64,000 nt of DNA, taken from the NCBI GenBank assembly GCA_000697665.1, contig KL197725.1:231567-295566 (forward strand), read 5' to 3'. Below the pieces are notes generated by a model. That model was not told where the DNA came from and ran no database searches. It worked only from the letters and a program-made list of their open reading frames with translations. Origin of the DNA: Jaapia argillacea MUCL 33604 (taxonomy: Eukaryota > Basidiomycota > Agaricomycetes > Jaapiales > Jaapiaceae). Made by a program: the position numbers and the translations under genes. Below, in pieces: positions 14,583-55,957 of the stretch. Positions within the stretch are counted from its first letter, which is position 1. Every line of letters starts with the position of its first letter.

Positions 14583-15829
14583 TCAGTTGACAACCGTCCG
14601 ATCCTTTCGTCTACGAATACACGCCTCAAGCTCTGTCAGCACCCAACCAATACCCGGCCTATGAAGGGGATCTTGCTTCCAACATTCACAAATTATCCGC
14701 CAGACATCATTAGGAATCCCCCTCCTAGGTCGTCGGGGTCTGATTCCACGGCGTACATCCTGGGAGACTTGGAATGCCTTGACGGGATGAAACGGGGGGT
14801 ATCCAGTGTAAACCTGCAGGGAGGGTAGAGTGAGATGACGAAATATACCTGAGGAACCGGCCATACCTCAAGCATAGTCATTCCGAAACAGTATACATCG
14901 CTAGCCGGTGTGTAAGGCTCCGTGTCGGAACCGATCTCAGGAGCGAACCAACGCCATATATCTGAGGTACCACGCGAATCTTTCAATGTCAACCCTGTGA
15001 CTTTGACGAGCCCGATATCGGTTAAGGAGGCACGACCACTCTTGTTAATGAGGATGTTTCCCTTGATATCGAAATCAGCTGAAAGGGGAAGAGCGAGGAG
15101 GGAGAACGAGTCTCACCCCTGTGATGCAGCCATGGGGAAGAGGCGTCGAGAGGCTATGCAAGTAGCTCAAGCCACGAGCGACATCCCGGAACTAAATAGG
15201 TTTTTTCGTCTCTCTAAATTTAACGACGGGGAGTGGTGACAACAGTGAACTTGTGGGCTTACCAAGGGAATAGGATCGACTGCGTTGCTCGCCACGTACT
15301 TGTTGATGTTCATTTCGTAACGCGGAAGCACCAAGGAAGGGATAGAATCCCAATGCCATGTCAGACCCAGGAAGGGAGCGATATTGGGATGGTGGAGTTC
15401 TTTCCATCGATCCAGGTGGTCTAATAATGTCTGGTGCAAAACTTCAGTGTTGGGCGCAGAAACAAGAGAAGAAAAATCACATTTGTAAAGTTCTGGGGGC
15501 GGTGAGGCCCTATAGATCCTTCCCACCAAGCCTTGACAACAACAGGGATTCCATTGTACATCCCATAGTAAGATCGGGAACGTGGGGAATTCCCGTAATC
15601 CTCATATCCGCTTCGGAGTAGATGTTCGTTGGGAATGATATAAGCTTGTTCTCTGGGGTTTCGAGTACCAGACTGTTCGAGAGGGAAGTTATGACCGACA
15701 TTGGAGCGGTTTGCACCATTGTAAGCAAGGAGCGGTGGAAAGGAGGTTTGGTACTAGTAGACTCACATTGTGGATCCTCTCCGAGGGCACGTCGGGGCCG
15801 TAAACATAAGTTTGCGCTTCGCGAAACAT
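14583..15829 (-). CDS. TKL-like protein kinase-fold protein PK-A, predicted pseudokinase
   Basis: Six exons (15829-15767, 15672-15481, 15430-15263, 15191-15117, 15061-14867, 14813-14583), all joined in phase 0, encode 307 aa. The first exon is MFREAQTYVYGPDVPS.... Exon 2 holds the N-lobe with VVVK (the ATP-binding lysine). Exon 3 has LDRWKELHHPNI...FLGLTWHW. Exon 4 has the catalytic loop HGCITG, continued by GNILI in exon 5, then TDIGL, WFAPEI and SDVYCFGMTMLE. Exon 6 carries the C-lobe with WKQDPLHRPG. The catalytic aspartate of HRD is Cys and the following Lys is Thr, so phosphotransfer is doubtful although the lysine and the DFG-type Asp remain. It is a paralogue of PK-B, PK-C, PK-D and PK-E. 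A role as scaffold or decoy is inference. Confidence 0.85.
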
Positions 15830-16954
15830 TGTGGGAGAGTTGGGGAGAAAGTGATGTGGTGTCGATCCCCAACATCTGCCTTTTAACAGTTTGAAGAGAT
15901 GTCAAAGCGAGCAGTGCCTTTGTTAGGGGGCACCGTTGAGAAGCAATGGTCCACGAAGCTGTGAAGATGGCATATCGCCCCATAACAGTGCAACGGTCTA
16001 AATCCGGATACTTGTAGGAAGAGACAATGGAAACCGTCCCATCTTAGCAAGAAGAACCATTGCGCGAGCACAAAAGAGCCCCCACTGAGGCCACACGAAG
16101 GACGAGAGTTCAACATGACCTCGTGTTCACAAGCGACACAAGAGTTTGCAGTACGATGTGGTGTCCCCGGGGGAAACAGAACTTGAGGAATGGACAACGT
16201 TTACGATTAGTCAGGACGAGGACAAGACGACTCGACGACTCGAACAAGAACATCAAGGCTCAGCTGTAGCCGTCCAAAATCAGGTCGCAAGCAAAAAGGG
16301 TCTATCCAAGTGAACCCCTTCCGAGGCAGTGCTCCGCTGGTAGGAGCTGAAATATTCAGCGCAGGGACACTGAACCATGAGGCTGATTTCCGATTGAAAA
16401 GCAATGCGTTTTCAGACCACCGTGCTATGTGATGACGATAACGGGAAACATCGGAGCAGGACACGCAAAGGACACGGTTCATGCGACGTCGCCACCTATC
16501 CACACAGCCATGTCCCAACCTCCAGATTTTGTGCGCAATCAGTACGTCCTGTTGACGGAAGTTTAGAAAGGTAACGGAGGTCGTCAGTCGCAGGAAGATA
16601 GACTTCATGTTCCAAAGATGAAGTCCAAGTGGCGTGGCGGTGATTGAAAGAGAGAACAACACGATCGACAATCTCGGTGAAGAGCTGAACGGCGAACAAG
16701 GGTGTGCGTCACGGTGAATGGCTCCCCACTGACTGAGAAAGTAACGAGGCCCGGCTGAGAGTTTGAGATGACTGGGAGTTGATTTCGTTGGACCTAAAGA
16801 AGCAGGGGCCGTACGTTCACATCTACGCCAGACCTACCCCCACATGCCTCACAAAACCTTGCTGAAACATCTGATGGTGGAGCAGTTTCTTGACCGGTAG
16901 GACATGATTAAGACGATTTCGTTATTGGGGGAGTTATGTGGGCGGTGTATACGC
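15830..16954. other. Intergenic region upstream of PK-A, with repeat relics
   Basis: About 15900-16090 resembles, in the same orientation relative to the kinase, the region upstream of PK-C (about 37560-37740), so the promoter was duplicated with the gene. About 16600-16745 is a diverged partial copy of the dispersed repeat also found at 40.8, 46.0 and 51.0 kb. No convincing coding frame is seen. Confidence 0.5.
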
Positions 16955-17017
16955 GACTGTTCCACTGTACATGTGTGGTCACTGGTGAAAACACCAGACT
17001 ATGGAGACCGAGACGTA

Positions 17018-17025
17018 TGACGTCA
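17018..17025. promoter_or_regulatory. CRE-type TGACGTCA palindrome upstream of PK-B
   Basis: An exact TGACGTCA lies about 720 bp before the PK-B start and is kept at the matching place upstream of PK-C (38215-38222). This is the classic bZIP/CRE site. Binding is not shown. Confidence 0.35.
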
Positions 17026-17744
17026 TGCACCGTCGTCCTGCCTCGCACAGCCTTGCAACCTCCGACCACAATCATTTCATTCCTACTGGTCGGGCACTTG
17101 CTGCTTGCTAGTTCTTTGGTTTGTGTGTTCCTACCGACAGCTGATATTGTCGCCACAAATCTTCACGGCGGAGGTTTGAAACTACCAACTTTGAATCGAA
17201 GGCCGGGAATCCTTGTGCTTCATCATTCTTGCTCTGCCAGCGGAGCACTGCATCGAAGAACAGAGCACGATCGTACACCAGAGTTGTCCTTCGGAGTCCT
17301 AATCTGGACCACTGATGCTCCGACTTTTCCTCTGCTCCGCTTGGGCCATCGTTGTCATGTTCTTGTTCCAGTGGATAATGGTCTCCATTCCTCAAGCCCT
17401 GTTTGTCCACGGACGCCACCTGACCAGACTTGCGACGAGCAGGTTCCTTTTGTCTTCTGAGGATGTTAGCCTTCTCCAATCCCAGGCAGTCGTGTAGCCT
17501 CAGTCGGGTTGCTTTTGTGCCCGCGCAATGGTTGCTACGATGAGATAACTTCCATTTTTCTCTTAGCCGTGGTATCCGTATTTGGATCCTTGCAGTATCT
17601 TGGGGCGATGCACGATATTTGCAGCATTGTGAGCCTCGTTGTTCACTCGTGGCTACCAGACAAGTGCTGCTTGCTTTGGCGCTTCCTCAAAGGACTTAAA
17701 ACCGGGTGTTCGAGATACAAACCCACATCACCTTCTTGCCCACA

Positions 17745-19089
17745 ATGTTTCGTGAAGTGCAATATACACCCGGTATCGGCGACATAGGCGACCCCACCAT
17801 TATATCAGAACGACCCTCCAATGTAAGTATCTCTTCCTTGCCATCGTTCGCCACTCACCATTTCACAATTCGCACCCGTGTCGGTCGTAACCCCCCCCCC
17901 CCTCGTACAGTCGGGTACAAGAAATTCCAGAGAGCAAAGTTATATTATTGCCAACGAACACCAACTCCGAAGCGGATATCACGATTACGGATGGACTGCA
18001 ATCGCCCGTTGCTACTATGGTGACTATGATGGAAATGCTGTTGTCATCAAGGCATGGTGGCCCCGACCATTCGAGTTCAAGGATCGGGCAGAAATATTTA
18101 CAAATGTACGCGTTCATTCGCTCTCAAGTTGCAAGTTGCATCTGGCAACTCGACCTCTACTAATTTCTTTCGCTAGGCATTATTCGACCAGCTAGATCGG
18201 TGGAAGGAGGTCCACCACCCCAACATTGTTGCCTTTCTGGGTGTGACATGGCATGCAAACGTTCAACCATCGTACCTCTCCCTACTCCCTTCCTTGGTCC
18301 TTCCGTTTTACGAAAATCGGAATATCAACAACTACTCGAAGAGTTACTCAGGCCAGGTGGATCTAATCCCCTTGGTAAGTCCGTTTCACTTTTGTCACGA
18401 GCCCCCGTTGTTGCATTCGATTGATTGGGTGTGTGACAAACTCGGTTAGTTTCTGGATGTCGCTTGTGGCTTGAGCTACTTGCACAGCCTCTCGCCGCCC
18501 CTTCCACACGGCTGCGTCAGGGGAGTGAGTATTCTCCCTCCCGTCTCCTTCCCATTTCAACTGATTTTCAACTATCACTTGTCAAGGGAAACATCCTCAT
18601 CGACTCTTCCGGTCATGCCTGCTTAACAGATATCGGCATTGGCAAAGTTACGGAAGCTATGTCGGGTGCCTTAATTCCCAGAGAGACGTTCCGCTGGTTT
18701 GCTCCTGAAATCATGGCCAAGCAAAGGGCAATAGACATGTTCACCACGGCTGGCGATGTATACAGTTTCGGCATGACTATGTATGAGGTACGCTTGATTT
18801 CTCGGTGTGTTTGGTCAACTCACCACTGATTCGTCTGTAGGTTTACACTGGACACCCTCCATTCCCTACGGTTAGAGTAAACACAGCCGTTAGCGACGTT
18901 CTCAACGGATTCAGACCCCCACGACCCGCAGCTAAGGAGCGTATTCCCGACGATATGTGGGATATAATCGAAAGCTGCTGGAAACAGGATCCTCTTGAGA
19001 GACCAAGTATCAATTGCGTTTGGAGATGGATTGAACTATGTATCCGCACGATGGAGGTGAAGAGCATATCTATGGGTGATGGCAAATGA
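17745..19089 (+). CDS. TKL-like kinase-fold protein PK-B, predicted pseudokinase
   Basis: Six exons (17745-17822, 17911-18105, 18177-18374, 18450-18524, 18587-18787, 18841-19089), all phase 0, encode 331 aa. N-lobe: GWTAIARCYYG, then VVIKAWWP. Exon 3: LDRWKEVHHPNIVAFLGVTWH. Catalytic loop: HGCVRG plus GNILID, so the HRD aspartate is Cys and the Lys is Arg. TDIGIG replaces DFG. WFAPEI and GDVYSFGMTMYE follow, and the C-lobe has CWKQDPLERPS. Intron 1 contains a 12-13 nt C run near 17891. The MFRE start is chosen because it is the start conserved in PK-A and PK-C; no upstream in-frame ATG exists. PK-C at 36153-37482 is its inverted-duplicate copy with identical exon lengths. Confidence 0.87.
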
Positions 19090-20590
19090 TGTACAATCCA
19101 GTTTTCCAGACCATCTGTAACCTAGTCATCCTCGATGGTTGATCCCTCGAAATTTATGCTTAACTGACATGATAAGAGTGTGAGCGAATTGACTCGTCGA
19201 CTACGAGGGTTACCCACCCGGAAGGATGGAAAGCTGAGTAACAATCACGTTTGAGTTGTGGAAAAACCGAAGAAGTTCCAAGCAGGCGGAATTGAGAGAT
19301 GTGGACATCAACAGCTTGGTGAAGGGCGCGGACCGGATGTCAAGAATATAGTAATTGGATAAAGCCAGCAGCAGGTTTCAAATGCAAGGGGGGCTATGGT
19401 GGGAAGGGCGAGGATGTAGGAAGTGGTTCAGTTCAGGGAGGTTGATCAGGCTTGTCGTACACTACGTCAGTTTTCATGAGTTTAAGTATCCGGTCAATGT
19501 GGCTGACGACAGCGTCGATGTACCTGCGAACAACACCCGCAAGCCATAGACGGCGAGCGATTGGTCCCAGCTTCAATCCGTAGAAATGGGTGGATTAAAG
19601 CGTGAAGTCTGAGTGTAAGAAATACATTTGTCGATTGTAGAGAAGTATGTTCGACATGTTCAAGAGTACGAGGAATTGACGAGGGAAGAAATTGAAGGCC
19701 TTATCTGCAGGCTGTAGTACAAGGTGTTCGGCAAACATATTCAACAACGGTGACCCCCCCTTGACTGGATGTATGCCCAAACTCACACGAGACGACAACT
19801 GTGTGAGTGAATCAATTTATTACTGATAGGAAACGAACCCACCTCCGCATGGGACGAGACTTTCATCAACCACCACCTGCGTATGTGTTGGAGAAACCGA
19901 CATCAGCACGAGAAAAAATCCTAAGGGGTAGCAGGATCCGCTTGCGAGACCAAGTATCAATTGCGATTGGAGATGGATTGAACTACATATGTATCCGCAT
20001 GAGGGAGGTGAAGAGCATATCTATGGGCGATGGCAAATGAGGTACAATCCAGTTTTCCCTTGTTTCCCAGACCATCCGTAACCTCGACGGTTGATCCCTC
20101 GAATATTACGCTTAACTGAGATGGGAAGAGTGTGGGCGAATTGACTCATCGACTACGGCCACCCGGAAGGATGGAAAACTGAGTAACAGTCATGTTTGAG
20201 TTGTGGAGAAACAGAAGACAGCACGAGCAGACATACCAGAAAAGAGCGAATGCCTCACTGCTGACTTGAAGGGTCACCGGTCACCCACTCCTTAACCGAA
20301 TGTACGCCCAAACTCACCCTCGACGATAAGCGTATGAGTGAATCAGTCTTTCAACGATACGAAGTTTACTCACCTCCCAAGGACAACAGCTAATCAACCA
20401 CCACCTGCATATATGTTGCGGAGAAACCAGCATCAGCGCGAGAAGGAATCCTAGAAGAGACTTAAACTCACCAGCCGAACAAAACTCGCGTTTCGTTCGA
20501 CCAGGGAAACGGTATAAGTAATTCACGTCTCGTCTCGACACGCAGAAAGACTCACCGCTAAAAGCCTGTTCGATTACTCCATCGACTGGG
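19090..20590 (+). repeat. Tandem duplication of the PK-B 3' end and flank
   Basis: Positions about 19930-20460 repeat about 18985-19910: the last about 100 bp of the PK-B coding region, its stop and several hundred bases of flank, offset near 950 bp. The second copy is only a gene tail and is not a gene. About 20460-20590 holds a short module with CTCACCAGCCG, also present in the right arm (about 35.7 kb) and near 44.72 and 52.5 kb at the edges of inverted duplication II. Confidence 0.7.
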
Positions 20591-20599
20591 TGTACTCGC

Positions 20600-21760
20600 C
20601 ATCCGGCTCCAAACCCTTCCTTGTGCAGATGTCCATCTTCCATCACACCTCACGGACCAACTGGCCTCCCCGTATACTAGGCAGACAGAGTTGCGGGATC
20701 AGGAATTTGGGGCAACAAAGAGATCAGATTCGCCGCTTCGATCAGAGGCGGGGACGGGTTTTGTCCAGGGTTCAGAGGTAAGGGGGAACGGGGTGGGAAG
20801 CTCGAGAAAGTGCACTGGGAGTAGTCCCGGACTGGGCCGCCTGCCAGCTACGAAGCACCCCTATTCCACCAGGAATGAGCATCTGGCTCAGGTATAGCTT
20901 CGCCGAGTCCAGAAGACTCGGAGGCAGGTTTGAAACCGTCAGCTACGAAGTCCTCCTTGAGCAGATGTCCATCTCCCATCATCCCCGCGGCCCAACTGGC
21001 CTACCCGCGTAGGTAGACAGAGTTGCGGGATCAGGAATTTGGGGCAGCAAAGATAGGCCTCGCCGCATCCAGAGGACACGGAGACGGTTTGAAGCCAGTG
21101 CACTTATGAAACCAGAGAGACCAAGGAGAGAAAAACCACTGGGAGTGGTCCCACACTCGACCCCCCGTCAGCTACAAAGCCGCCCTTTTCCACCAGGCAC
21201 GAGCATCTGGCTTAGGTATAGCTTCGCCGAGTCGTTTCGACTCGGAGACAGGTTCGAAACCATCGGCTACAAGACCTCCACTTGTGCAGATGTCCATCTT
21301 CCATCACCCCCACCGCCCAACTGGCCTCCCGACAATCCCGGAAGGCAGAGTTGCGGGGTCAGGAATTTGGGGCAACAAGCGTGGATCTCGCCGCGTCATC
21401 ATGATAGAGACACGGAGACAGCTATCAGACCAGCACATTTTGAAAATGAGAGATCAAGAGAGAAATAAAAAGAACACTGAGAGCAGTCCCCTTGTCGGCT
21501 ACAGGGCCGCCCCTTTCCACCAGGCATGGAACATCAAGGCTTGGGTATAGCTCCGCCGCGTTGTCGAGACATCGCAGAGACAAGTTTGAAGCCGTCAGCT
21601 ACAAAGCCACGCCTCTAGCATATTCCCATCTTCCGTCATACCTCACAGACCCACCAGCCAAACGAATTTGGTCAGCAGACCCATGAAGTCAAGAAATTGG
21701 GGCATCGAGGGAAGACCTCGCCGCGTCGATACGACACGGAAACGACTTGAAGCCAGTGTG
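20600..21760 (-). repeat. Tandem array of about 330-bp hairpin-bearing units (left arm)
   Basis: About four units start near 20620, 20960, 21285 and 21620. Each holds GCAGATGTCCATC, GGCAGAGTTGCGGG(G/A)TCAGGAATTTGGGG, a stem-loop of the form TCNCCG...CGGCGA (read on the minus strand) and a conserved CACCAGGC segment. The stems differ between units by paired changes. The right arm carries the mirror-image array at 34420-35600. No protein-coding frame is shared by all units. Confidence 0.75.
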
Positions 21761-22313
21761 TTTGAGAAGAGAAGGCAAACAGAAAGCGCACCGTGAGTGG
21801 TCCAAGGCTTGCCGCCATACAGGTTACTGTCAGCCACTGAGCTGGAGATGGGTATAGTACTAGCAGCGGGTCAGGAATGTTGGGCGTCAACAACTCGGAG
21901 AGCATAATGCTCACCTCGAGAATACGGCGGCAGAGTGAAGGCAGCGCTCACAAAAGTAGAGGGGATGATGAGGAAGAAAGGGAGGAAATGAGAGTGTCCA
22001 GAAACGAGTTGGGTGCAACTCTTATACCACGTCGGTTTTCATATGTTTATCCCGTCGGTGCGGCTGATGAGCTGGGTACCCAAGACACCCGCCAGCCGTG
22101 TGTGGTTAACTGGTTGTAACTGGAATTCGTAGCAATGGGTCAAGTACGGGCAATGGTTTGTCAATGGATGCTATTCTATAGATGAGGCTGGATGAAGTAC
22201 ACGTTCAAGACTTTCAGACATTAATGAAGGAAGAAATTAAGACCTCTGTGGGACACGTGGATGGAACGGGTTACAAGAAGATATGAATAGGGAAATGAAT
22301 AGGGAAACTGTGT
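21760..22313. other. Intergenic part of left arm
   Basis: This matches about 33891-34400 of the right arm in reverse complement, with patchy similarity. It includes a tract with ACCCGCCAGCC. No coding frame is conserved between the arms. Confidence 0.45.
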
Positions 22314-23994
22314 CTACCACCGCCTGAGCGCATTAGGTCTACTGCTTCGCCAATGGGTGCTCCTCGAAGCTTGTGACTGATCCTAGACGAGAGTGAGGAC
22401 GGACATTAGGATAAAATGGAAGACCTGGCTCACGTCGTCAGAAAAACCCACCCACATCCCTCGTGGGGGATGGTTCATGTCGTCCGGTCCTCGGTAAACA
22501 CCTTGGCACGAAGATCCCGCAACAGCGTTGAAAGGAACGCTGCCTTCCTCGCCTTCTTCTACCTTCGCTTCAACCGGGGGCGATGAGAGCCTCCTGCGCT
22601 TCATAGAGCTACGTGAAATGGTTTCGTCGTCTTCAGGATCAGCGCCTCGAACCCTCTTCCCAGGAGACAGGATCAGGGAGGTTTCGTGTATGGTTCGAAG
22701 CAGAGAGCTTGTGCTGGTCCCACCAACCAGCGGGGGGAAGAGCATGGCGGGAGAGCGAACCATCCTTCCTGCCGGCGACGCCCAATCCACAGTCGAAGAA
22801 GAGGCTATATTGTAGGCGGGGGGAGGCATCCTCATGGCGATCGGAGAAGCATCTTCGTAATGATAGGCAATATCGCGCGAAAACATATTGATGTCTTGAG
22901 GAACTGTTCGGTGGAATCCTTGACCGGGATAGTCAAAACGGTCACTATGCTGCGTCACAGGAGGCAGAGACGGGGCAGTGGTTTTCGGGAAGGTCCCATT
23001 TGCAGCAGCGACATTCAAGGTACTGAGACTCTGGTTCTTGGAGGGAATCGATGATAACTCATAGCTTGAATCTGTAGGACCAATCGGCTCGTTCGGAGAC
23101 AGAACACGGTCTCGTGATTGTTTCACCAAGTTTGAAGAAGCTGCGCCAGTCGTGCTGAGTAACATCGACGAACAAGATCCGCGTCCTCGAGGTTCAGAAA
23201 TATCGTTGCGAGTAGATAGACGTGAGGAAGACGCGGGCAGACTGTCAGGAAGCGGAGCAGTGAACGGGCCTGAACTCTCATCAGGATGACCCGCGATTGC
23301 GCTGTGGATTAACTGCGATGACGACAGTGTGCGAGTTTCTGGATGATCCGTCACATCGCTGCTACTAGAAGAACCCAAAAGTACGACTCGTTCGGGTTGC
23401 AGAGCGGAAGACAAGCCAGAGACGGCAGGGACTTGAGACGGTGAAGAAGTCGACAAGGCACGAGAGCGGGCTCCCGAGGTGACGATCTCGCCACAATGTG
23501 TCGATTGGCTGGAGAGGAGAGTATCGGTAGGCTCTTGTTTTGGTTTGCCAAACTGAGCGATATCTTGTAGAGACGACGGCGGTTTGATGGAGGTAGATTG
23601 GGATGGAAGATGGGACGATCTGTTTGGTTGATTGGGCAGTTGGCATCCCGAAAGCAGGGGCTTGTCATGATATGAGTTGCTTGTCTGTAGCTCAAAACCT
23701 GAACCGGCATTCTGAGAAGAGATCATATCAGTAACATAATCGGAAATTGCGATGTTCGCTTACTGAAGGTCCATCCGTCAAATCGGTGCAGCATCGTACA
23801 CAGCAGCGAGCCTCGACAAGTGCTTCCAAAATCTCACAAAGATCGTTGGCGCGATCGCACTCCTCAGCCTCAGCTTGAAACCGATTGTTCAAGGCTTCGT
23901 ATTGCTCGTTATGTGCGTGATGCCGCTCCTCAGCTTCTTTTACTTTTCTACGAAGGTCCACCAGTGGGTCGTCCAGCGACTTGGTGTGCAACAT
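22314..23994 (-). CDS. F1: coiled-coil plus disordered protein of unknown function
   Basis: The preferred model has three exons (23994-23764, 23711-22434, 22382-22314), 525 aa. The N-terminus (MLHTKSLDDPLVDLRRKVKE...) predicts a coiled coil with a Cys pair (CVRCC) near residue 70. The rest is Ser/Pro-rich with SPGKRVRGAD, a basic KRRRLSSPP (NLS-like) and a conserved DVYRG/GVYRGP..DMNHPP end. Reading through the last GTGAGC...CTAG intron ends at once at the TAG overlapping the acceptor (stop 22383). Splicing it adds 22 codons that are also open in F2, so I favour splicing. It is related to F2 at 32066 but strongly diverged. A nuclear location is inferred from the basic motif. Confidence 0.7.
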
Positions 23995-24190
23995 GGGAGA
24001 ATCAAGGTGGTTGGTTATCATCGAAGGGTCTGAGGGAGATGGCGGGTAGGATGTGGTTGATGGTTGAAGTTTGGAATCGTCAAAAACGCTGCAACGCGAA
24101 TGCTGGACTCGTCGGACTCAGGTCTCCCATGGACCAACCTCCTCCGTCCTGGGAAATGTGCCAACAAACCATTGAAGCGCGTTGGAACTA

Positions 24191-29505: not shown

Positions 29506-30241
29506 NNNNNNNNNNNNNNNNNNNNNNNNNNNNNNNNNNNNNNNNNNNNNNNNNNNNNNNNNNNNNNNNNNNNNNNNNNNNNNNNNNNNNNNNNNNNNNN
29601 NNNNNNNNNNNNNNNNNNNNNNNNNNNNNNNNNNNNNNNNNNNNNNNNNNNNNNNNNNNNNNNNNNNNNNNNNNNNNNNNNNNNNNNNNNNNNNNNNNNN
29701 NNNNNNNNNNNNNNNNNNNNNNNNNNNNNNNNNNNNNNNNNNNNNNNNNNNNNNNNNNNNNNNNNNNNNNNNNNNNNNNNNNNNNNNNNNNNNNNNNNNN
29801 NNNNNNNNNNNNNNNNNNNNNNNNNNNNNNNNNNNNNNNNNNNNNNNNNNNNNNNNNNNNNNNNNNNNNNNNNNNNNNNNNNNNNNNNNNNNNNNNNNNN
29901 NNNNNNNNNNNNNNNNNNNNNNNNNNNNNNNNNNNNNNNNNNNNNNNNNNNNNNNNNNNNNNNNNNNNNNNNNNNNNNNNNNNNNNNNNNNNNNNNNNNN
30001 NNNNNNNNNNNNNNNNNNNNNNNNNNNNNNNNNNNNNNNNNNNNNNNNNNNNNNNNNNNNNNNNNNNNNNNNNNNNNNNNNNNNNNNNNNNNNNNNNNNN
30101 NNNNNNNNNNNNNNNNNNNNNNNNNNNNNNNNNNNNNNNNNNNNNNNNNNNNNNNNNNNNNNNNNNNNNNNNNNNNNNNNNNNNNNNNNNNNNNNNNNNN
30201 NNNNNNNNNNNNNNNNNNNNNNNNNNNNNNNNNNNNNNNNN
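29506..30241. other. Assembly gap (736 N)
   Basis: Unsequenced. It is bordered by direct repeats and minisatellites, which probably broke the assembly. Frames crossing it are meaningless. Confidence 0.99.
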
Positions 30242-31500: not shown

Positions 31501-32049
31501 ACTTCAAAATGACAGGTATATTCTCACAGAGAATGAGCAAAGAAACAGAAAAGGAAAATTACTAGCACCGGAATGCTACATCTTCACCTGCAGCAAAACA
31601 ATCCTAACACACGTCGAGCTGGCCTGGCACTGGACACCAATGAGTTTGACCATAGAACAGACTCACCGAGCTTCGTCCATGACTACATAGGCAAAGGCCA
31701 GTGACACATCGCGAGGGCTCGAGATACCCATATTTAAGGAGCTGGCCTAGATAGCCAAATACATTGACTTGTACAGCAGTAGTAGAGATGAAAAGCTGAG
31801 CTGTAGAGTGAGGCACGAAGCCCGAGCAAGAGTTATCAGCAGCGAGCAACGTTGTGGCAGGAGACAACGAGCGACTGATGCCTGATTTGTCCAACTCGTG
31901 CGAAGACCCCAATCTGGGTTCGAATCCTCCATCGCTCTGCTTCCTCCGCTCGTTCCTCACTACATTCCCCTTGCTCATCGTCACATCACCGAGATTACAA
32001 GTTAACCACATCCTACCCAACACATCCCTCTGGCCCTCATAAGATCTAG
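31501..32049. other. Spacer with repeat unit a
   Basis: 31889-32000 is the second copy of unit a of the gap-flanking repeat. The rest shows no gene. The right arm of inverted duplication I starts at about 32050. Confidence 0.55.
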
Positions 32050-32065
32050 CCTTCTAGAATCACCC

Positions 32066-33890
32066 ATGTCTCATACAAAGTCCTTGGACGATGAATTGGT
32101 CGAGCTCCGTCAGCAAGTCAATGAAGCTGAGGAGTGCGACCACGCACTCAACGGGCGATACGAAGCGTTGAACACTCGCATTCAAGATCTGGCCGTGGAG
32201 CGAGGCCGTGTTGGGAATCGGTGTCAGGCTTTGGAGGCTCGTCTCCAGGATGGTCTTTGTGCCAAATGCTGGATCGATATCCCTTCAGTAAGCGAACGTC
32301 GCCATCTTCGACCGCGTTGCTGAGATGATTCACTTTCAGAATGCCAACGGAGGTTCTGACCTACCGACAAGCAATTCATCTCCTAGCATCCCCCAACTTT
32401 CGGAGCCTGAGAGCAGTCTGTCGAACCAACCAAACACATTGGCCCACCTTGTATCCCAACCTATGGCATCCCCCAAACCGACGTCGGCCACAGAGGGTAT
32501 TGCTCAGTTCGGCAAATCAACACAACACGTTAACAATACTCGCCTCTCCAGCCAACCATCGCATTTTGGCAAGGCAGTTGCCTCGGTAACCCACTATCGT
32601 ACCATGTCAACTTCTCCACCTTCCGAAGTCTCTGCGATATCTAGCTCCACTTCGGCTCGGCAATCCCGACCTGTTGTGGTCCTGGGCCTTTCTGGGAACG
32701 AACACACGACGGTTCTGTCAGAAGCGACTGCCTCGTCGTCGCAGCAGCCATCGATTCCGAACACAACCTCGGCTCATCTGAACGAGACTTCAGGCCCGTT
32801 TACCGCTCCACCGCCTGGTAGCAACAGTCTTCCCGCCTCATCCTCCTCACGTCTGCCTAGTCACGAAGATGTCTCTGCCCCTGAAACCATGGTTGGGTAT
32901 TCCGAACTTGCCGTTGTCTCAGGACCTGTTTCGACAGCACCGAGCCCTAAAGAATCTCAGCCTCGAGGACGTGGACCTTTTTCATCACGAATTCCTATTC
33001 GAACCATCCCTGCGGCATGTCAACGCACTGAGGACGCTCGTCTTGGCCTCTCGATGTCACTTAGAACGACTGGCACAACGCCTTCTACTGTGGCAAAACG
33101 CTCCCGTCGTCAGGTTTCGTCCTCAAAGAAGGCTGTTAGTCCTCAGACCTCAGGCTCGAAGGAGTCGTCGGCGCAATCCAAAATCAAGAGTCGCACAACT
33201 TCGAACTTTTCTGCTTCTTCGGCCTTCCCAGGTACTGCTCCCGCGTCTTTGTCTCCCGCGACCCATCGCAACGACCCTATGGAGTATCCAGGTCAACAGT
33301 TCCAACACACTTTGGCTAATGACATCAATACATCTTCTCGTCCCGCTCCTCTCAGCCCTAATCAGTTCAACGAGTTTGGTTTTCCACTCGCTATGAGGAT
33401 GCCTCCCTACACCTACAATGTCGCCTCATTGTCGACATCAGCGGGCAGAATGGTTCATTCTCCCCCCACGCTCATCTCTTCACACGTTCCCGAGACCAAG
33501 CCGTCCTCTTTGCGTCCACCTATCCCCGAATCCACCCTGCTCCTGTCTCCCGGAAAGCGGGTCCGAGGTGCTGATTCTAAAGATGGCGACAACATTTCCC
33601 AGAAGCGCAGGAAGCTCTCATCACCGCCGGTCAAAGTCAAGGCAGAGGAAGACGAGGACAGCAGCATTCATCTCAACGCTGTAGCGGGACCTTCGCACCA
33701 AGACGTCTACCGAGGACCAGTCGACATGAACCATCCCCCAGGAGAAATATGGTCGGATTTTTCTGAGAATGTGAGCCAAGTTTTTGGTCGTATCCCAATG
33801 TCCGTCCTCACTCTTGTCTAGATCCAGTCACAAGCTTCGAATAGCGCCCATGGGCGAAACAGTAGATCAGATGTGCTCAGGCGACAGTAG
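32066..33890 (+). CDS. F2: coiled-coil plus disordered protein, partner copy of F1
   Basis: The preferred model has three exons (32066-32287, 32340-33770, 33822-33890), 573 aa. The N-terminal MSHTKSLDDELVELRQQVNEAEE is a coiled coil like F1, with a CAKC pair near residue 66. A long Ser/Pro/Thr-rich region follows, with basic KRSRRQ and QKRRKLSSPP motifs and the conserved DVYRGPVDMNHPPGEIW. A GTGAGC...CTTGTCTAG intron near the end, if retained, stops at 33821; if spliced, it adds QSQASNSAHGR..., matching F1. Against F1 it has many in-frame length differences, far more divergence than the kinase copies in the same arms. Function unknown. Confidence 0.72.
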
Positions 33891-34420
33891 ACACATAGTT
33901 TCCCTATTCATATCTTGTAACCTTCTTCCCATCGACTTGTACCATAGAAGTCTTTTCTTCCTTCCAATGACCGAAATTCTTGAACATGTACTTCATCCTT
34001 CTATACAATCCACAGACGAATCTATTGCCCGTACTTCACCATCATCTGGGCTATGAATTCAATTTACGACTAGCTGACGACATACGGCTGGCGGGTGTCT
34101 TGGGTATCGAGGTCGTCAGCCGCTCCCGACGAGATAAACACATGAAAACCGACGTGGTATAAGAGTTGCGACTAACTTGTTTCTGAGCACTATCATTTCT
34201 TCTCTTCCTCCTCATCATCCCCTCTGCTTTTGTGACGCACTGCCTTCACTCTGCCGCTGTATTCTTGAGGTGAGGATCATGCTCACAGAGTTGTTGATGC
34301 CCAACATTTCTGACTCGTCACTATCTCTACCTCCAGCTCGGCGGCTGACAGCAACTTGAATGGTGCCAAGTCTCGGACTACCACGGTGCGCTTTCTATTT
34401 GCCCTTCTTTCTCAAACACA
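33891..34420. other. Intergenic part of right arm
   Basis: This is the mirror of about 21760-22313. Short frames here are not conserved between arms. No gene is seen. Confidence 0.45.
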
Positions 34421-35600
34421 CTGGCTTCAAGTCGTTTCCGTGTCTTATCGACGCGGCGAGGTCTTCCCTCGATGCCCCAATTTCTTGACTTCATGGGTCT
34501 GCTGACCAAATTCGTTTGGCTGGTGGGTCTGTGAGGTATGACGGAAGATGGGAATATGCTAGAGGGGTGGCTTTGTAGCCGACGGCTTCAAACTTGTCTC
34601 TGCGATGTCTCGACAACGCGGCGGAGCTATACCCAAGCCTTGATGTTCCATGCCTGGTGGAAAGGGGCGGCTCTGTAGCCGACAAGGGGACTGCTCTCAG
34701 TGTTCTTTTTATTTCTCTCTCGATCTGTCATTTTCAAAATGCGCTGGTCTGATAGCTGTCTCCGCGTCTCTATCATGATGACGCGGCGAGATCCACGCTT
34801 GTTGCCCCAAATTCCTGACCCCGCAACTCTGCCTGTCGGGATTGTCGGGAGGCCAGTTGGGCGGTGGGGGTGATGGAAGATGGACATCTGCACAAGTGGA
34901 GGTCTTGTAGCTGATGGTTTCGAACCTGTCTCCGAGTCGTTTCGACTCGGCGAAGCTATACCTAAGCCAGATGCTCGTGCCTGGTGGAAAAGGGCGGCTT
35001 TGTAGCTGACGGGGGGTCGAGTGTGGGACCACTCCCAGTGCGTTTTTCTCTCCTTGGTCTCTCTGGTTTCATAAGTGCACTGGCTTCAAACCGTCTCCGT
35101 GTCCTCTGGATGCGGCGAGGCCTATCTTTGCTGCCCCAAATTCCTGATCCCGCAACTCTGTCTACCTACGCGGGTAGGCCAGTTGGGCCGTGGGGATGAT
35201 GGGAGATGGACATCTGCTCAAGGAGGACTTCGTAGCTGACGGTTTCAAACCTGCCTCCGAGTCTTATGGACTCGGCGAAGCTATACCTGAGCCAGATGCT
35301 TGTTCCTGGTGGAATAGGGGTGCTTCGTAGCTGGCAGGCGACCCAGTCCGGGACTACTCCCAGTGCCTTTTCTCGAGTTTCCCACCCCGTTCCCCCTTAC
35401 CACTGAGCCCTGGACAAAACCCGTCTCCGTGTCTCATCGAAGCGGCGAATCTGATCTCTTTGTTGCCCCAAATTCCTGACCCCGCAACTCTGTCTGCCTG
35501 GTATACGGGGAGGCCAGTTGGTCCGTGAGGTGTGATGGAAGATGGACATCTGCACAAGGAAGGGTTTGGAGCCGGACGGCGAGTACACCCAGTCGATGGA
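34420..35600 (+). repeat. Tandem array of about 330-bp hairpin-bearing units (right arm)
   Basis: This is the mirror image of the left-arm array; stretches such as 34491-34900 are almost identical to it. Stem-loops lie near 34437, 34600, 34757, 34928, 35095, 35253 and 35426. Stems include CCGAGTC/GACTCGG and CCGCGTC/GACGCGG, always inside the constant frame TCNCCG...CGGCGA. Confidence 0.75.
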
Positions 35601-36152
35601 GTGATTGCACATGCTCTTAGCGGTGAGTCTCTCCACTTATCGAGACGAGATTTGAATTACTCATACTGCTTCCCCGGTCGGGCGAAATGCAAGTTTTGCT
35701 CGGCTGGTGAGTTTAACTCTCTTCTAGGATTTCTTCTCGCGCTAATGCTGGTTTCTCCACAACATATATGCAGGTGGTGGTCGATTACCTTTTGTCCTTC
35801 TCTGGGAGGCGAGTAAACTTCCTATCTTTGATAGATCGATTCACTCATACAGTTGTCGTCTCGGGTGAGTTTGGGCGTACATCCAGTCAAGGAGCTGGTG
35901 ACCGGTGACCCTTCAGGTCAGCAACGAGTCATTCGCTCTTTTCTGGTATGTCGTGCTGTCTTTGGTTTCTCCACAACCCAGGCGTGATCGTTACTCGGTT
36001 TTCCATCCTTCCGGGTGAGTCACCACTCGTAGTCGACAAATCACATCGCTCACACTGTTGTTATCTCGGTTAAGCATAAAATTCGAGGATCAACCATTGA
36101 GGACGACCAGGTCACGGATGGTCTGGGAAACCAGGGAAAGGGGGATTGTACA
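35601..36152. other. 3' flank of PK-C in right arm
   Basis: It includes the edge module with CGGCTGGTGAG (about 35.70 kb) and sequence matching 20050-20460 of the left arm. No gene is seen. Confidence 0.5.
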
Positions 36153-37482
36153 TCATTTGCCATCACCTATAGATATGCTCTTTACCTCCCTCGTGCGGAT
36201 ACACAGCTCAATCCATCTCCAAACGCAATTGATATTTGGTCTCTCAAGAGGATCCTGTTTCCAGCAGCTTTCGATTATATCCCACATATCGTCGGGAATG
36301 TGCTCCTTAGCCGCGGGTCGTGGGGGTCTGAATCCGTTGAGAACGTCGCTAACGGCTGTGTTTGCTCTGACCGTAGGGAACGGAGGGCGCCCGGTATAAA
36401 CCTACGGACAAAATGGTGGTGAGTTGACCGAACGCACCCGAGAAACCAAGCGTACCTCATACATAGTCATGCCGAAACTGTATACATCACCAGCCGTGGT
36501 GAACATGTCTATTGCCCTTTGCTTGGTCAGGATCTCAGGAGCGAACCAACGGTACGTGTCTCTGGGAGTGAAACTACCCCACATAGCTTCCGTAACTTTG
36601 CCGATGCCAACATCTGTTAAGCAGGCATGACCGGAAGAGTCGACCAGAATGTTTCCCTTGATTCAAAGTGATCAGGTAAAATGAGAAGGAGGCAGGAGGG
36701 AGAATACTCACTCCCGTAACGCAGCCGTGTGGAAGGGGCGGCGAGAGGTTGTGCAAGTAGTCCAAGCCACAAGCAACATCCAGAAACTAACCGGGTTTGT
36801 CACACACCCAATCAGTCGAATGCAACAACGGGGGCTCGTGACAAAAGTGAATCGGACTTACCAAGGGGATTAGATCCACCTGGCCTGAGTAACTCTTCGA
36901 GTAGTTGTTGATATTCCGATTTTCGTAAAACGGAAGGACCAAGGAAGGGAGTAGGGAGAGATACGATGGTTGAACGTTTGCATGCCATGTCACACCCAGA
37001 AAGGCAACAACGTTGGGGTGGTGGACCTCCTTCCACCGATCCAACTGGTCGAATAATGCCTAGCGAAAGAAATTGGTAGGGGTTGAGCTGCCAGATGCAA
37101 CTTGTAAGCGAATGAAGGCGCACATTTGTAAATCTTTCTGCCCGATCCTTGAACTCGAATGGTCTTGGCCACCATGCCTTGACGACAACAGCCTTTCCAT
37201 CATAGTCACCATAGTAGCAACGGGCGATTGCAGTCCATCCGTAATCGTGATGTCCACTTCGGAGTAGGTGTTCGTTGGGAATAACATAACTTTGCTCTCT
37301 GGAATTTCTTGTACCCGACTGTGCGAGAGGGAGTTATGACCGACGTGAGTGCGTATTGCGAAATGGTAAATGGCGAACAATGGCAAGGAAGAGGTGATAC
37401 TCACATTGGAGGGACGTTCTGATATAATGGTGGGGTCGCGTGGGTCGTCGATACCGGGAGTGAATTGCACTTCACGAAACAT
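36153..37482 (-). CDS. TKL-like kinase-fold protein PK-C, predicted pseudokinase
   Basis: Six phase-0 exons (37482-37405, 37318-37124, 37059-36862, 36786-36712, 36656-36456, 36401-36153) encode 331 aa, exon for exon the same lengths as PK-B. The start is MFREVQFTPGIDDPRD. VVVKAWWP is present. The catalytic loop is HGCVTG plus GNILVD, so Asp is Cys and Lys is Thr. TDVGIG, RWFAPEI and GDVYSFGMTMYE follow. The frame is whole, so both inverted copies were kept open after duplication although each lacks the catalytic base. Its upstream region shares the CRE site with PK-B. Confidence 0.87.
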
Positions 37483-38443
37483 TGCGGGCAAGAAGGTGAT
37501 GTGGGTTTGTATCTCGAACATCCGGTTTTAAGTACTTTGAGGAAGCGCCAAAGCAAGCGGCACTTGTCTGGTAGCCACGACTGAACAACGAGGCTCACAA
37601 TGCTGCGGAGATCGTGCATCGCCCCAAGATACTGCAAGGATCCAAATACGGATACCACTGCTAAGAGAAAAATGGAAGGTACCTCATCGTAGTAACCATT
37701 GTGCGAGCACAAAAGCAACCTGACTGAGGCCACACGACTGCCTGGGGTTGGACAAGGCCAGCATCCACGAGAGACAAAATAAAGTGGCTCGTAGCAAGTC
37801 TGGTGAAGTGGCGTCCGTGGACAAACTGGGCTTGAGGAATGGAGACCATTTATCCAGTGGAACAAGAACATAACAACGATGGCCCAAGCGGAGCAGAAGG
37901 AAAGTCGGAGCAGCACTGGTCCAGATTAGGACTCCGAAGGACAACTCTGGTGTACGATCGTGCTCTGTTCTTCCTTGCAGTACTAGTGCTCCGCTGGCAG
38001 TGCAAGAATGGTGAACCACAAGGATTCCCGGCCTTCGATTCAAAGTTGATAGTTTCGAACCGCCACCGTGAAGATTTGCGGCGATAATATTAGCTGTCGG
38101 TAGGAACACACAAACCAAAGAACTAGCAAGTAGCAAAGACCCGACGAAGTACAATAGGAATGAAATGATTGTGGTCGGAGGTTGCAAGGCCGTGCGAGGC
38201 AGGACGACGGCGCATGACGTCATACGTCTCGGTTTCCATAGCCCGGAGTTTTCATCAGAGTGGAACAGAAACAGATGTTCTACATACATCTATCTCGAAG
38301 TGGATATCAACACTGGGAAACATAACATTGGGATCAAGTGGCGCAATCCGTACGAACGGATCAGGCCAAGGCACTCCAGGAAACATCCATCGTGAAGGGT
38401 TCAATTGCGAGGAGTCGAATTCAACTCCGAGTCGCAGTATCCA
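37483..38443. other. Upstream region of PK-C and arm end
   Basis: This is similar to 16955-17744 (left arm) and in part to the PK-A upstream region. A frame in 37684-38289 is partly shared with the left arm but its ends are not. Beyond about 38270 the similarity stops. Confidence 0.45.
38215..38222. promoter_or_regulatory. CRE-type TGACGTCA palindrome upstream of PK-C
   Basis: This is an exact match to the bZIP/CRE consensus at the position equivalent to 17018-17025 in the other arm. Use is inferred only. Confidence 0.35.
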
Positions 38444-39672
38444 TCACATATCTTGGATAAGAATCTGCAGTTCCAGCCAGGCACGGACTGTGTCAATCGA
38501 CGGTCGGTCTTCGGGGGCATGTTGCCAGCAACTTTGGAGTAGGTTCCAAGTATCGTCTGTAATTCTCGTCCTTGTGTCTTCATCCCGAGGTCGACACGGC
38601 CGGACTTCGTGGAGGATGTTGATGATCACCTGGAAGCATGATCGAAGATCTGAAAATGGCACTAAACCTGTCAACACCTAAACTCGAGTAAGTTTCGGAC
38701 GGTGAAGGAGTAGAAGCTGAGGAATGCACCTCGAGAATAGTCATTCCAAAGCTATAGACATCGATTGCAGGTCTCCTGGTGCAAGCTTGCGGGTTGAAAC
38801 TCTCAGGCGCAATCCAGCGGTGCGAAAATTCGGTACCAAATCTTGAGTCATGAACTACGATTCTCAGACCGAAGTCGACAAGAAGGGGCCGGCCAGACTC
38901 GCTAACAAGAATGTTTGACTATGATATCGAATTAGGGTCTCGCTTACTCGCTAAGCAAATGATTCAAACTCACGGCTTTCAATCCACCGTGTACAACTGG
39001 CGGTGACAAACTGTGCATATAGCTTAACGCCGATGCAATCTCGACGAGCTAATCAAAATGTGGGTTTTGTCGACAACGGAGGATCAGGTAGACTCACCAA
39101 GGGGAAAGGGTCTATCTCAGGATTCCTTTCCAAATATTCATTGATGTTACCGTTCTCATGACGTGCATAGACTATTGATGGAATCGAGTGCCAATGCCAT
39201 GTCAAACCTAAGAAGTGACCAATATTGGGGTGGCGAAGATGTCTCCAGGTTCGCAGCTCCATGAGAAGCTTCTGTATACAAACGCGAAAGCAAGTGTCAG
39301 CTACTATATTGAGCAGAGAAGACTGAACAACTCGCCTCAGGGAAGTCTGCACTAATATCAGAGGCTGTGCCCTCTGCTCCGTGGAAACGTTTGATAATGA
39401 CCCGAGTATTGCCAAGGGTGCCAGGGAACAGAGCCGCGCAGGGGCTCCAGATCTTGTACCATGTCTGGGGCCATGTGTGCACCAACTGGTGCTCATTTAC
39501 TATCAGGTACTCTCGTTCTTGCGAGTTGCGTACACCGGACTACATGAAAGAGTAGGGTTGTGAAGAAAATAAGTACGTGTCGAGAGAGCCATGGATCGAC
39601 AATACTGACATTGAACGCGCAATGGTCGCTTTGGTCGCATTCACGATACGGGGCAATATATGTAGATGCCAT
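38444..39672 (-). CDS. TKL-like kinase-fold protein PK-D, predicted pseudokinase
   Basis: Six phase-0 exons (39672-39610, 39539-39336, 39271-39098, 39048-38974, 38918-38730, 38677-38444) encode 312 aa. Intron 2 has a GC donor (GAG|GCGAGT). Exon 1 is MASTYIAPYRECDQSD. Exon 2 starts SGVRNSQEREYLIVNEHQL, matching SGTRN.RE of the others, and has VIIK. Exon 3 has RHLRHPNIGHFLGLTWHWHS. The catalytic loop is HGGLKA plus SNILV: the Asp is Gly, the Lys is kept. DFG is intact (VDFGL), with WIAPES and IDVYSFGMTILE. The C-lobe ends QHAPEDRPSIDTV...LEL. It is outside the palindromes and more diverged than PK-A to C. Confidence 0.86.
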
Positions 39673-40780: not shown

Positions 40781-40799
40781 ACCTCGATGTCCAAGTCGA

Positions 40800-45265: not shown

Positions 45266-45699
45266 AGCGTGGTCAACGAATCAGACGACAATGAGTTGTG
45301 CTCAGATGCATCCGATAGACACAGACAGGTGCAAGTTGGGTAGAAAAGGGAGTTGGAAGCGGAGGGACAGGGGGAGGAAGTCCTCGTTGGGGGGGAAAGG
45401 AAAGGAGGATTATGGAGGATGGGACGGTTGAGCAGGCTTTTATAGTGTTGAGACCCAAGGAATCACATGAAGGTCGCTGGAACCGTTGGGTTTCGGACTG
45501 AACGGCTGGACGCTGGCTGACACTGACACGCGTAATGCGGAGAGTTGGATACGCGAGGTACGAAAGGCAAAGATTCGTCTTGAACTCATCGATACGTTTG
45601 CAGTCATAGATTTAGGGAGATCAAGGATATACGAAGAAGAAATTGACAGCAGATCATCAGTTTGAAAGTTTCCTAGTGTCGTGGTTGAGAGCATTGAAG

Positions 45700-50639: not shown

Positions 50640-51345
50640 ACGCTTGTCGAGTGTGAATGTGAATGGTCGTTCTCACCGGTTGAGTTTGACGATTGGGTGG
50701 AGACACATCGCTGCCGGAATTCCAAGGACGTAGAAGCTGACGGTGAACAAGAATATGGGCGAACGGCCTCCCACTGATTGATTAACGGTGGCGGAACAAG
50801 ACAACCGAGAATTGAAATTTGGTTGGATTGCTGTCGATTTCAGGTTCGGTCCCCGATGAAACTCTCAATAGACTTCGAACGATTCCACATCACCACTTCG
50901 CCCTCTTATATATGCCGAGCTCTTCTTCTCGACTCGCTTGAGACCCGGTCGAAGCATGGCCTGGAGATTGTCAGCGCTAAATGGAACATACGAAAGCGAG
51001 GGAGAACTACCTGGATACCCAAGTTGGAACTATCGTCTCGCCGCCGAAGATCGAGTTCCGTGGTGGGTTGGGACTAAGCTTGACCTCGGAGAGGCGATAA
51101 AGCCTGCAGAAACAATCAAAACAAGCCTGGGCGAGCTACCACTTTCAGCCATGTTTCGGGATTTCGAAGTTTGATTGACGCTCGAAATCCGCGTGAGCCT
51201 GAGGTTGGAGGGTCGAGTTGTTGGAACCAATCGTGCAGCGCCGTCGCACAGAGGAAGATGTTGAAGTTCAGAATCAAGATGGACGATCACAAGCAAGCCA
51301 GCATGTCGCGACAACCGCGACACCGTCACGGTGTCCAAATCTCTT
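50640..51345 (+). repeat. Dispersed repeat R, copy 3 (in right arm II)
   Basis: Same strand as copy 1. It contains the 17-bp palindrome GACACCGTCACGGTGTC at 51319-51335. Confidence 0.7.
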
Positions 51346-51776
51346 GCTCTGAACCACGACACTAGGAAACTTTCGAACTGATGATCTGTTGTCAATTTCT
51401 TCTCCGTATATGCTTGAACTCCCCAAAATCTATGACTGCAAACGTATCGATAAATCCAAGACGAGTCGTCGCCTTACGCACCTCCTCACGTATCCAACTT
51501 TCCGCATTACGCGTGTCAGCCAGCGTCCAGTCGTTCAGTACGAAACCCAACGGTTCCAGAGACCTTCATGTGATTCCTAGGGTCTCAACACTATAAAAGC
51601 CTGCTCAACCGTCCCATCCTCCATAATCCTCCTTTCCTTTCCCCTCCAACGAGGACTTCCTCCCGTTGTCCCTCCGCTTCCAACTTCCTTTTCAACCCAA
51701 CTTGCACCTGTCTGTGTCTATTGGATGCATCTGAGCACAACTCATTGTCGTCTGATTCGTTGACCACGCTTGTCGT

Positions 51777-52400
51777 GAGGATGATGGTGGACAGTTCGGC
51801 TTTGGGGGGCTCTCGCGATGGCAGCGTTACGAGGCTGTCTCTGTGACCTTTGGTTGCGGCGAGCACAGTCTATTGTCAGCCCTGACTCGTTGACCGTGCA
51901 TACTCACGAGGATGATGGTGAGCAGGGACCTGACATTGGACGGCTCTGTCATGACAGGCCTGGGTGTGTCTTTCTTTCTATATCTCTCCTTTCGTGTCAG
52001 CCTCACATAGCGTGGCACATGTCTCCGCGACCTTTCGTCGCGGCGAGCACAGTCTATTGTCAGCCCTGACTCGTTGACCGTGCTAGTATGTCACGAGGAT
52101 GATGGTGAGCAGGGACCTGGCATTGGGCGGCTCTGTCATGACAGGCCTGGGTGTGTCTTTCTTTCTATGTCTCCCTTTTTGTGTCAGCCTCACGTAGTGT
52201 GGCACCTATCTCCGTGACCTTCCGTTGCGGCGAGCATAGCCTATTGTCAGCCCTGACTCGTTGACCGTGTTTGTATGTCGCGAGGATGATGGTGAGCAGG
52301 GACCTGGCATTGGGTGGCTCTGCATGTGACAGCGATGGACCTCTCCAACCCCTTTCGTTCTCGTCATCGTCTCCTCTCATCCTCGTGCTCTCATGACGGA
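51777..52400 (+). repeat. Tandem 187-bp hairpin repeats, about 3.5 copies (right arm II)
   Basis: GAGGATGATGGTG starts units at 51777, 51907, 52094 and 52282. Stem-loops near 51838, 52023 and 52210 include the perfect CCGCGAC...GTCGCGG. CAGCCCTGACTCGTTGACCG follows each stem. Confidence 0.85.
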
Positions 52401-52560
52401 GAGTATCGAGGAGGAGTTTTTCAGCGGTGAGCCTATCCCTTTGTTGCTATAAGTCGTGATTTACTCATACCATTTCCCCGGTCGGATGGGACGGTATCCT
52501 GTCCGCCTGGTGAGTTATGTTCCATTCAGGGTTATTCTCAAGCTGACTCCCCTATATACC

Positions 52561-54608: not shown

Positions 54609-55957
54609 TCAGCTCGCAACCTCCCCAACCCGAGTCAAAACCTCCAACCAGGCAGCAACAGTCCCCATCCCCGGTCTCTTCTCCGGTTCTTGTACCCAAC
54701 AGCTCTCTATAAGTGACCACAGATCATCCGATATAACTTTCATCTTCGAAGTTGGTTGTGTGGATTTTGATTTCGATTTCGATGATGAAGACGAGGGAGC
54801 AGGAGGGGCAGGACGTGGTGGTCGACGTCCGTTTATAACATCATAAACAACCATGGATCCATACTTCCTATTCGCAAACGGTTCTTCTCCCGTAAAGACC
54901 TAAACTCCCCCAAATCAACCCTGCACCCGCTCCAAAAACGAAGAAGAGACACACCTCCAAAACGGTCATACCAAAACTATAAACATCACCCTCCCTACTC
55001 CCCCTAATCTCTCCCTCAAACCCAGGTCCAGGGTATATAATCTCAGGTGCCAACCATCTACAAGCCGAGCCGATGTTGGCGATGGAGAAGTTTGAGTAGG
55101 CTGCGACCGAGCCTAGGCCAAGGTCTGTTAAGAGGGCGTGGCCGTCGTCGGATATCAGGATGTTGGACTATGAAGGGGATGAGTGGGGGAAGGGGGGGAG
55201 GAAGGTGGCAGACGTACGCCTTTGATGTCGCCGTGGGCGATTGGGGGGTCGAGGTTGTGCATGTAGACTAAGGCGCTTGCTACATCGAGTAACTAGATAA
55301 ACCAAATAGGGGCGTCAATACCCTACTATCCCAAATACAAATGGCGCCACTCCAGAATGATGGTGATTCGCCACGAAGAGAAACCGAAAGAACACTCACC
55401 AAAGCACCCCCATCCCCCATCCCACTCTTCAAATAACTCATGATATTCCCATTCTTATAAAACGGGAAAACCATCGAAGGGATTTGACCCCAATGCCAAG
55501 TTAGACCGAGGAACGAAACGACGGAAGGGTGTGAGAGTGATCGCCAGATCTTCAATTCCACTAGGAGACGCTGTTGGGTGCTTAGCTTCGTGTTGTGACG
55601 AGGGTGGGGATAGAACTGACCCTGGTGAAATCCTGACTCTCGCTAGTAGAGAAACTAGCCCCTCGCCAAGCTTTGATCATAACCATCATAGCACCCAATT
55701 TACCACGATAGAGATCTGTGCATCCGCTCCCTGTGAAGCAGAATTCTTCGTGGGACATTTGGGATTCGTCGGGGAGGGTGAAAAGCTGTTCGTGTGAGGG
55801 TCTGGGACCGGACTGCCGAGGGGGGGGGGTTAGGTTGCGGTTGAGGTAGGATAGAGGAAGGGATACGTACGTTGAAGATGCATTCTCGGAAACCCTCGTT
55901 GGTACTTGACGCTTCGACTAGCGATGAGGAAGATGGAGATACTGTGGGTGTCATCAT
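54609..55957 (-). CDS. TKL-like protein kinase PK-E with intact catalytic loop
   Basis: Six phase-0 exons (55957-55871, 55812-55621, 55570-55400, 55292-55218, 55167-54955, 54899-54609) encode 342 aa. Exon 2 begins SGPRPSHEQLFTLPDESQ, like SGTRNSREQ in the others, and has MVMIKAW with the ATP lysine. Exon 3 has SLSHPSVVSFLGLTWHWGQ. The catalytic loop is HGDIKG plus SNILI, with Asp and Lys both present. TDLGLG replaces DFG. WLAPEI, GDVYSFGMTVLE and a C-lobe with CWVQEPEKRPGM follow. The open frame continues upstream to an ATG at 56086, so a longer N-terminus is possible. It is the only member of the window's family that looks catalytically competent. Confidence 0.85.

Follow-up and report, generated by a model that had tools for sequence, protein, structure and literature searches.

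Introduction

According to the excerpted text of PMC10211241, the TKL group has more pseudokinases than any other, and these occur mainly in plants and fungi. The excerpts of PMC2838846 report an excess of TKLs in Laccaria, and those of PMC3937382 describe an expansion of FslK kinases in Agaricomycetes, in which most members have conserved catalytic residues and are probably active. HER3, as presented in the excerpts of PMC4718504, lacks two residues, the αC Glu (His in its place) and the catalytic Asp, and retains the β3 Lys, the loop Asn and the DFG Asp. In its αC-out form it binds ATP with a Kd of about 1 uM, one Mg sitting between the Asn and the DFG Asp, and it serves as an allosteric activator of partner kinases. 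The same excerpts state that JAK JH2 domains bind ATP and regulate a kinase, and that weak activity remains in both HER3 and JAK2 JH2 (PMC4718504).

We describe here a local group of kinase-like genes from the genome of Jaapia argillacea, four of which lack the catalytic Asp. Among the matches listed, judged by titles and the starts of abstracts, none deals with HGC or HGG loops of mushroom TKLs, which is not proof of absence; the excerpted text of PMC10197012 contains nothing on these kinase-like genes.

Gene models and domain type

The window, i.e., the whole stretch of 64,000 nucleotides that was analysed (contig C17:231567-295566 of a genome of 43.7 Mb in 95 contigs), contains five such genes. 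The introns are short and the TKL family is very large, as would fit a mushroom-forming fungus. A hand-spliced draft of PK-B, used as a tblastn query, found four relatives within the window, and the five genes were modelled by splice-aware alignment followed by a final joining of exons. PK-A to PK-E are complete genes of 307–342 residues each, running from ATG through stop, with no internal stop in any model. All have six exons and five introns; the 25 introns are uniformly of phase 0, and 24 of them have GT-AG borders. The exception is intron 2 of PK-D, for which GC-AG is the best reading; a weak GT slightly further downstream, by a few bases, appeared in the first model and keeps the frame as well. 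The catalytic-loop exon is 75 bases long in all five genes, and its splice sites lie at equivalent positions. The residue check, genome searches, Pfam scan and structure search were performed on first models, in which PK-A was two residues short at its end and PK-D had 315 residues; for the residue check, the PK-E model also lacked part of exon 1. Protein identities and final dN/dS values were obtained from the final gene models.

In a Pfam scan of PK-A, PK-B, PK-D and PK-E, all four proteins matched PF07714 at 92–104 bits (94.5, 104.2, 98.2 for the earlier 315-residue model, and 92, respectively; cut-off 23.1), as TKL-type domains do, although PF07714 matches tyrosine kinases too and so is no proof of TKL membership by itself. 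PF00069 was also above its cut-off (94.5 bits for PK-E), and no other Pfam domain was found in the four proteins; PK-C was placed through its 91% identity to PK-B. Among the best 60 of 1829 solved chains ranked by sequence, the nearest to PK-B include EGFR, CTR1, roco4, TNNI3K and Mer, i.e., tyrosine and TKL kinases.

Catalytic site

The sequence-only reading of this DNA held that four of the five genes have lost the catalytic-loop Asp, that the ATP-binding Lys and the Asp of the DFG-type motif are kept in all, and that all frames are open. The gene models bear out each of these statements. Thus, PK-A (14583..15829, minus strand) has HGCITGGN and DIG, with His at the position of the αC Glu; PK-B (17745..19089, plus strand) has HGCVRGGN and DIG, and PK-C (36153..37482, minus strand) HGCVTGGN and DVG, both with Gln at the αC position. 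PK-D (38444..39672, minus strand) combines HGGLKASN with an intact DFG and αC Glu, and PK-E (54609..55957, minus strand) has the full catalytic set, with HGDIKGSN, DLG and the αC Glu. From PK-A to PK-E the codons at the catalytic site are TGC, TGC, TGC, GGA and GAC, and the residues at the DFG Phe position are Ile, Ile, Val, Phe and Leu. The β3 Lys, the loop Asn and the DFG-type Asp are each retained in five of five. What the earlier reading did not contain is that the αC Glu has been lost together with the Asp in PK-A to PK-C, with the residues for ATP and metal retained. If a pseudokinase is defined by sequence as lacking at least one of the VAIK Lys, the HRD Asp and the DFG Asp, PK-A to PK-D are pseudokinases, and PK-E, which has all three, falls outside the definition.

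Duplication within the window

Self-BLAST of the window places PK-B and PK-C in the two arms of an inverted duplication, the left arm at 16982..24058 (plus strand) and the right arm at 32004..38258 (minus strand). The outer parts pair at 90% identity (16982-19273 with 38258-35959, inverted); further in, identity is 83% (19932-23188 with 36257-33030) and then 68% (23195-24058 with 32877-32004). The presence of PK-B and PK-C in matching inverted arms indicates a single gene copied in an inverted block. Their proteins are identical at 300 of 331 residues, their exons at 932 of 996 positions (93.6%, no gap columns) and their introns at 290 of 327 (88.7%, plus 29 gap columns). The 750 bases upstream of the two genes are 90–94% identical, which is comparable to the exons, so that conservation of the PK-B and PK-C exons alone tells little. 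Exon 3 (18177-18374 and 36862-37059) is 98.0% identical, against 90–95% for the remaining exons; gene conversion is perhaps the cause. The PK-A region matches both arms at 65–66% DNA identity.

Apart from these genes, a Pfam scan of 26 window ORFs, made to annotate the neighbours, gave nothing besides DUF6697 (29.3 bits, cut-off 23.9) in an ORF at 25094-25618, between the duplication arms. The window also contains another inverted duplication of about 2.8 kb (44900-47661 and 49383-52135, 87%), with shorter repeats nearby.

Asp losses across the genome

A census of related genes was made with PK-B, PK-E and PK-D as queries against their own genome, and its comparisons are accordingly among paralogues of one genome; because the searches scored the best candidates only, the counts are lower bounds. 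The regions covered were 100 of 140 candidates, plus seven loci from parts of four of the other 40, hand-picked for likeness to the window genes. A family profile with spliced alignment yielded 110 models, of which the 102 scoring at least 480 were kept; the eight dropped are L062, L047, L110, L111, L041, one of two at L109, L022 and L044, and L047, which reads HGR, would count as another loss. L001, L003-L006 and L008 were scored yet excluded as other kinase types. The 102 models still include rows resembling other kinases (e.g., L016 and L036), and several loci expected to hold two genes yielded one model (e.g., L039, L046, L074 and L082).

The catalytic column is Asp in 90 of the 102 TKL-type models. 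The 12 without it have Cys (PK-A, PK-B, PK-C), Gly (PK-D, L079), Asn (L026, L034, L043, L058, L098, L109) or Ser (L094). The hand-picked loci contribute five more, three with HGN (L112, L114, L118) and two with HGG (L113, L116), which makes 17 of 109, or 13 of 105 under the same cut of 480; L112, L113, L114 and L116 score 339–463, below that cut, and of these L114 is modelled only in part and L116 without the APE segment. All three genes examined in a second local cluster, about 8 kb long at C1:2081600-2089700, lack the Asp (L112 HGN, L116 HGG, L113 HGG). Losses of the Asp thus recur across the TKL-type family in this genome, and the earlier view that it is unusual for such genes to be amplified locally is not supported. 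In-frame stops occur in five of the 102 models (L020, L025, L033, L063, L085), in part perhaps through errors of modelling. L079, L094 and L109 look decayed.

Two further features of the census were observed. The DFG Asp is lost in six of the 102 models (L015, L053, L066, L068, L076, L079; GFG, GLG or SLA), five of which retain the loop Asp. In the six Asn models the catalytic-site codon is AAT or AAC, from which a single A-to-G change leads to Asp, and in fungi having A-to-I editing such codons could be recoded to Asp; we know of no such editing in this fungus.

In a tree built without the loop, DFG and αC columns, PK-A, PK-B and PK-C form a clade (support 100/99), and all five window genes group with L034 of contig C50 (100/96), which is placed among them. 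These belong to a wider subfamily of 14 genes (89/89 in the tree of 102; 93/91 with the picked loci) that holds nine of the 12 losses and in which 11 of 14 members lack the αC Glu. L112, L113 and L116 of C1 form a separate clade with L114 of C13 (100/99). The minimum number of changes at the catalytic site is five on the tree of 102 and seven with the picked loci (109). Given the recent inverted duplication behind PK-B and PK-C and the single clade of PK-A to PK-C, HGC represents one event.

The sequence-only reading counted the loss of the Asp as having occurred in at least two ways. Cys and Gly do differ, but the argument is weak: PK-A, PK-B and PK-C are not independent, and an AU test, with groups defined after inspection of the tree, does not reject PK-A to PK-D as one clade (p 0.268), so that one loss followed by a change of residue is possible. 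A clade of PK-A to PK-E is not rejected either (p 0.328). For eight Asp-less rows (PK-A to PK-D, L034, L026, L043 and L058, with L094 omitted) the corresponding p is 0.021, which disfavours a single loss without regain among them. Ancestral loss with regain in PK-E is allowed by unordered parsimony; we consider it the less likely course, given that the αC Glu, too, is retained in PK-E and PK-D.

Across the nine Asp-less genes of the subfamily, with site names that are our own assignment, the β3 Lys, the loop Asn and the DFG Gly are each kept in eight, and the DFG Asp, the APE Glu, the αF Asp and the final Arg in all nine. Poorly kept sites include the αC Glu (1/9), the VAIK Ala (1/9) and the DFG Phe (3/9). 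The Gly of the Gly-rich loop is present in four of nine, so ATP binding could be weaker. Mean pairwise identity among the nine is 40%, and owing to their kinship the site counts are not independent.

Selection on PK-A to PK-C

For PK-A, PK-B and PK-C jointly, dN/dS is 0.41, with a likelihood ratio of 40.0 against neutrality (dN/dS of 1), and branch-specific values for the three add little (1.24). PK-B against PK-C gives 0.41 (ratio 11.3) with the final models and 0.44 (ratio 8.9) with profile models; counting methods give 0.30 (NG86) and 0.39 (YN00). Protein identity within the trio goes down to 58% (177/305). Since HGC is common to all three, their divergence, and the constraint seen in it, is most simply later than the loss of the Asp.

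Close pairs of Asp-bearing paralogues were picked on the tree for comparison. The nine usable pairs span 0.18–0.61, a range that includes the 0.41 of PK-A to PK-C; the pair at 0.61, L060/L108, is indistinguishable from neutral (ratio 2.9). Values of 0.34 and 0.22 were obtained for the HGN pair L043/L058 and the mixed pair L067/L098, respectively, and the pairs D/E, A/E, B/E, L026/L058 and L083/L097 were set aside for saturation at silent sites. Constraint on PK-A to PK-C is thus not stronger, and not clearly weaker, than on Asp-bearing relatives, and a dN/dS near 0.4 represents a moderate degree of constraint only.

Discussion

We favour, at a probability of roughly 0.6, the reading that PK-A to PK-D are pseudokinases of a TKL expansion that, in the manner of HER3 or JAK JH2, bind nucleotide and act through protein contact, with PK-E as a catalytically complete relative. 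The retained domain fold, with its β3 Lys, loop Asn and DFG Asp, would probably bind ATP and one metal ion. Phosphate transfer would be inefficient without the catalytic Asp and, in PK-A to PK-C, also without the αC Glu. Through protein contact, PK-A to PK-D may then switch or scaffold a catalytically complete TKL relative. By analogy, the logic of HER3 is the most likely one for PK-A to PK-C, and a JH2-like or scaffold role the most likely one for PK-D. As HER3 and JAK2 JH2 keep weak activity, it is not certain that PK-A to PK-D are "dead".

The sequence-only reading had proposed a non-catalytic role such as scaffold, decoy or nucleotide sensor. A non-catalytic role is reasonable, because whole frames have been kept by selection (dN/dS 0.41, ratio 40, for PK-A to PK-C) and the divergence of these genes most simply follows the loss; scaffold, decoy and nucleotide sensor are indistinguishable from sequence. 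An alternative that we regard as unlikely takes the genes to be by-products of birth and death, recently copied, deprived of activity, under weak residual constraint and heading to pseudogenes. The inverted duplication is indeed recent, PK-D has a non-canonical donor, and the family contains the models with in-frame stops, whether or not some are model error, as well as the decayed-looking L079, L094 and L109. PK-A, PK-B and PK-C themselves, however, have undamaged frames, and neutrality is rejected for them over a divergence that reaches 58% protein identity.

We find it rather improbable that PK-A to PK-D are unusual active kinases or other transferases, in which another residue replaces the Asp or the nucleotide is differently oriented, as in known atypical pseudokinases. 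The Lys, Asn and DFG Asp retained in all four would suit such enzymes, and other presumed pseudokinases have turned out to be active (PMC4718504 and PMC10211241, in excerpt); yet the αC Glu is also gone from PK-A to PK-C, and none of the four offers a substitute acidic residue in the stretch from the loop His to the loop Asn. Very improbable is an artefact, whether alternative splicing that restores the Asp or two haplotypes (PK-B and PK-C) misjoined across the assembly gap of 736 N in the inter-arm spacer (29506..30241), because the loop residues lie within one exon with the same splice sites in all five genes, so that a shifted exon 4/5 junction would not restore the Asp, A-to-I editing would be unable to turn TGC or GGA into Asp, the arms are flanked by different DNA, with PK-A next to one and PK-D next to the other, which argues against misjoined haplotypes, and PK-A to PK-D would still be without the Asp if PK-B and PK-C were alleles.

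The genes are real, intact and under selection, and they are ordinary in kind: they exemplify a phenomenon that earlier work describes as common among fungal TKLs. What the analysis adds is the joint loss of the αC Glu and the Asp while the ATP and metal residues stay, together with the recurrence of such losses in the family. In our opinion, the genes are of value as a defined group of intact fungal pseudokinases under selection whose Asp-bearing relatives are present in one genome; repeated loss of the Asp with retention of ATP and metal residues makes the function of a fungal TKL expansion testable through pairs of relatives. A more general idea, which we consider a long shot, is that mushroom TKL expansions hold fast-renewing, nucleotide-sensing pseudokinases of separate origins (the window clade, the C1 clade and others), in local clusters that in the window lie beside a catalytically complete relative. 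Such genes might act as a recognition system of kinases and pseudokinases whose partners diversify, for example in self/non-self or developmental signalling.

Comparison with known systems

As in the TKL and FslK genes of Agaricomycetes described in the excerpts of PMC3937382 and PMC2838846, the expansion is large and lineage-specific, consists mostly of lone kinase domains and includes recent paralogues. In contrast to FslK, most members of which are predicted to be active in the excerpted text of PMC3937382, 12 of 102 models (17 of 109 with the picked loci) are without the Asp; the likeness of the window genes is to the description of FslK in that source rather than to a place in the FslK clade next to animal tyrosine kinases.

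PK-A, PK-B and PK-C share with HER3, as described above, the loss of the αC Glu and the Asp and the retention of the Lys, the Asn and the DFG Asp, and the αC His of HER3 recurs in PK-A. PK-D, in which the αC Glu is present, is not HER3-like by sequence. HER3 is a receptor carrying further domains, whereas PK-A to PK-D are stand-alone domains, and the position that is Asn in HER3 is Cys in PK-A to PK-C and Gly in PK-D. With JAK JH2, PK-A to PK-D share a predicted mode of action, that of a nucleotide-binding pseudokinase acting on a kinase. The catalytic loop of JAK JH2 reads HGN, as it does in L026, L034, L043, L058 and L098. JAK JH2 and its kinase are parts of one chain; any partner of PK-A to PK-D would instead be a separate protein.
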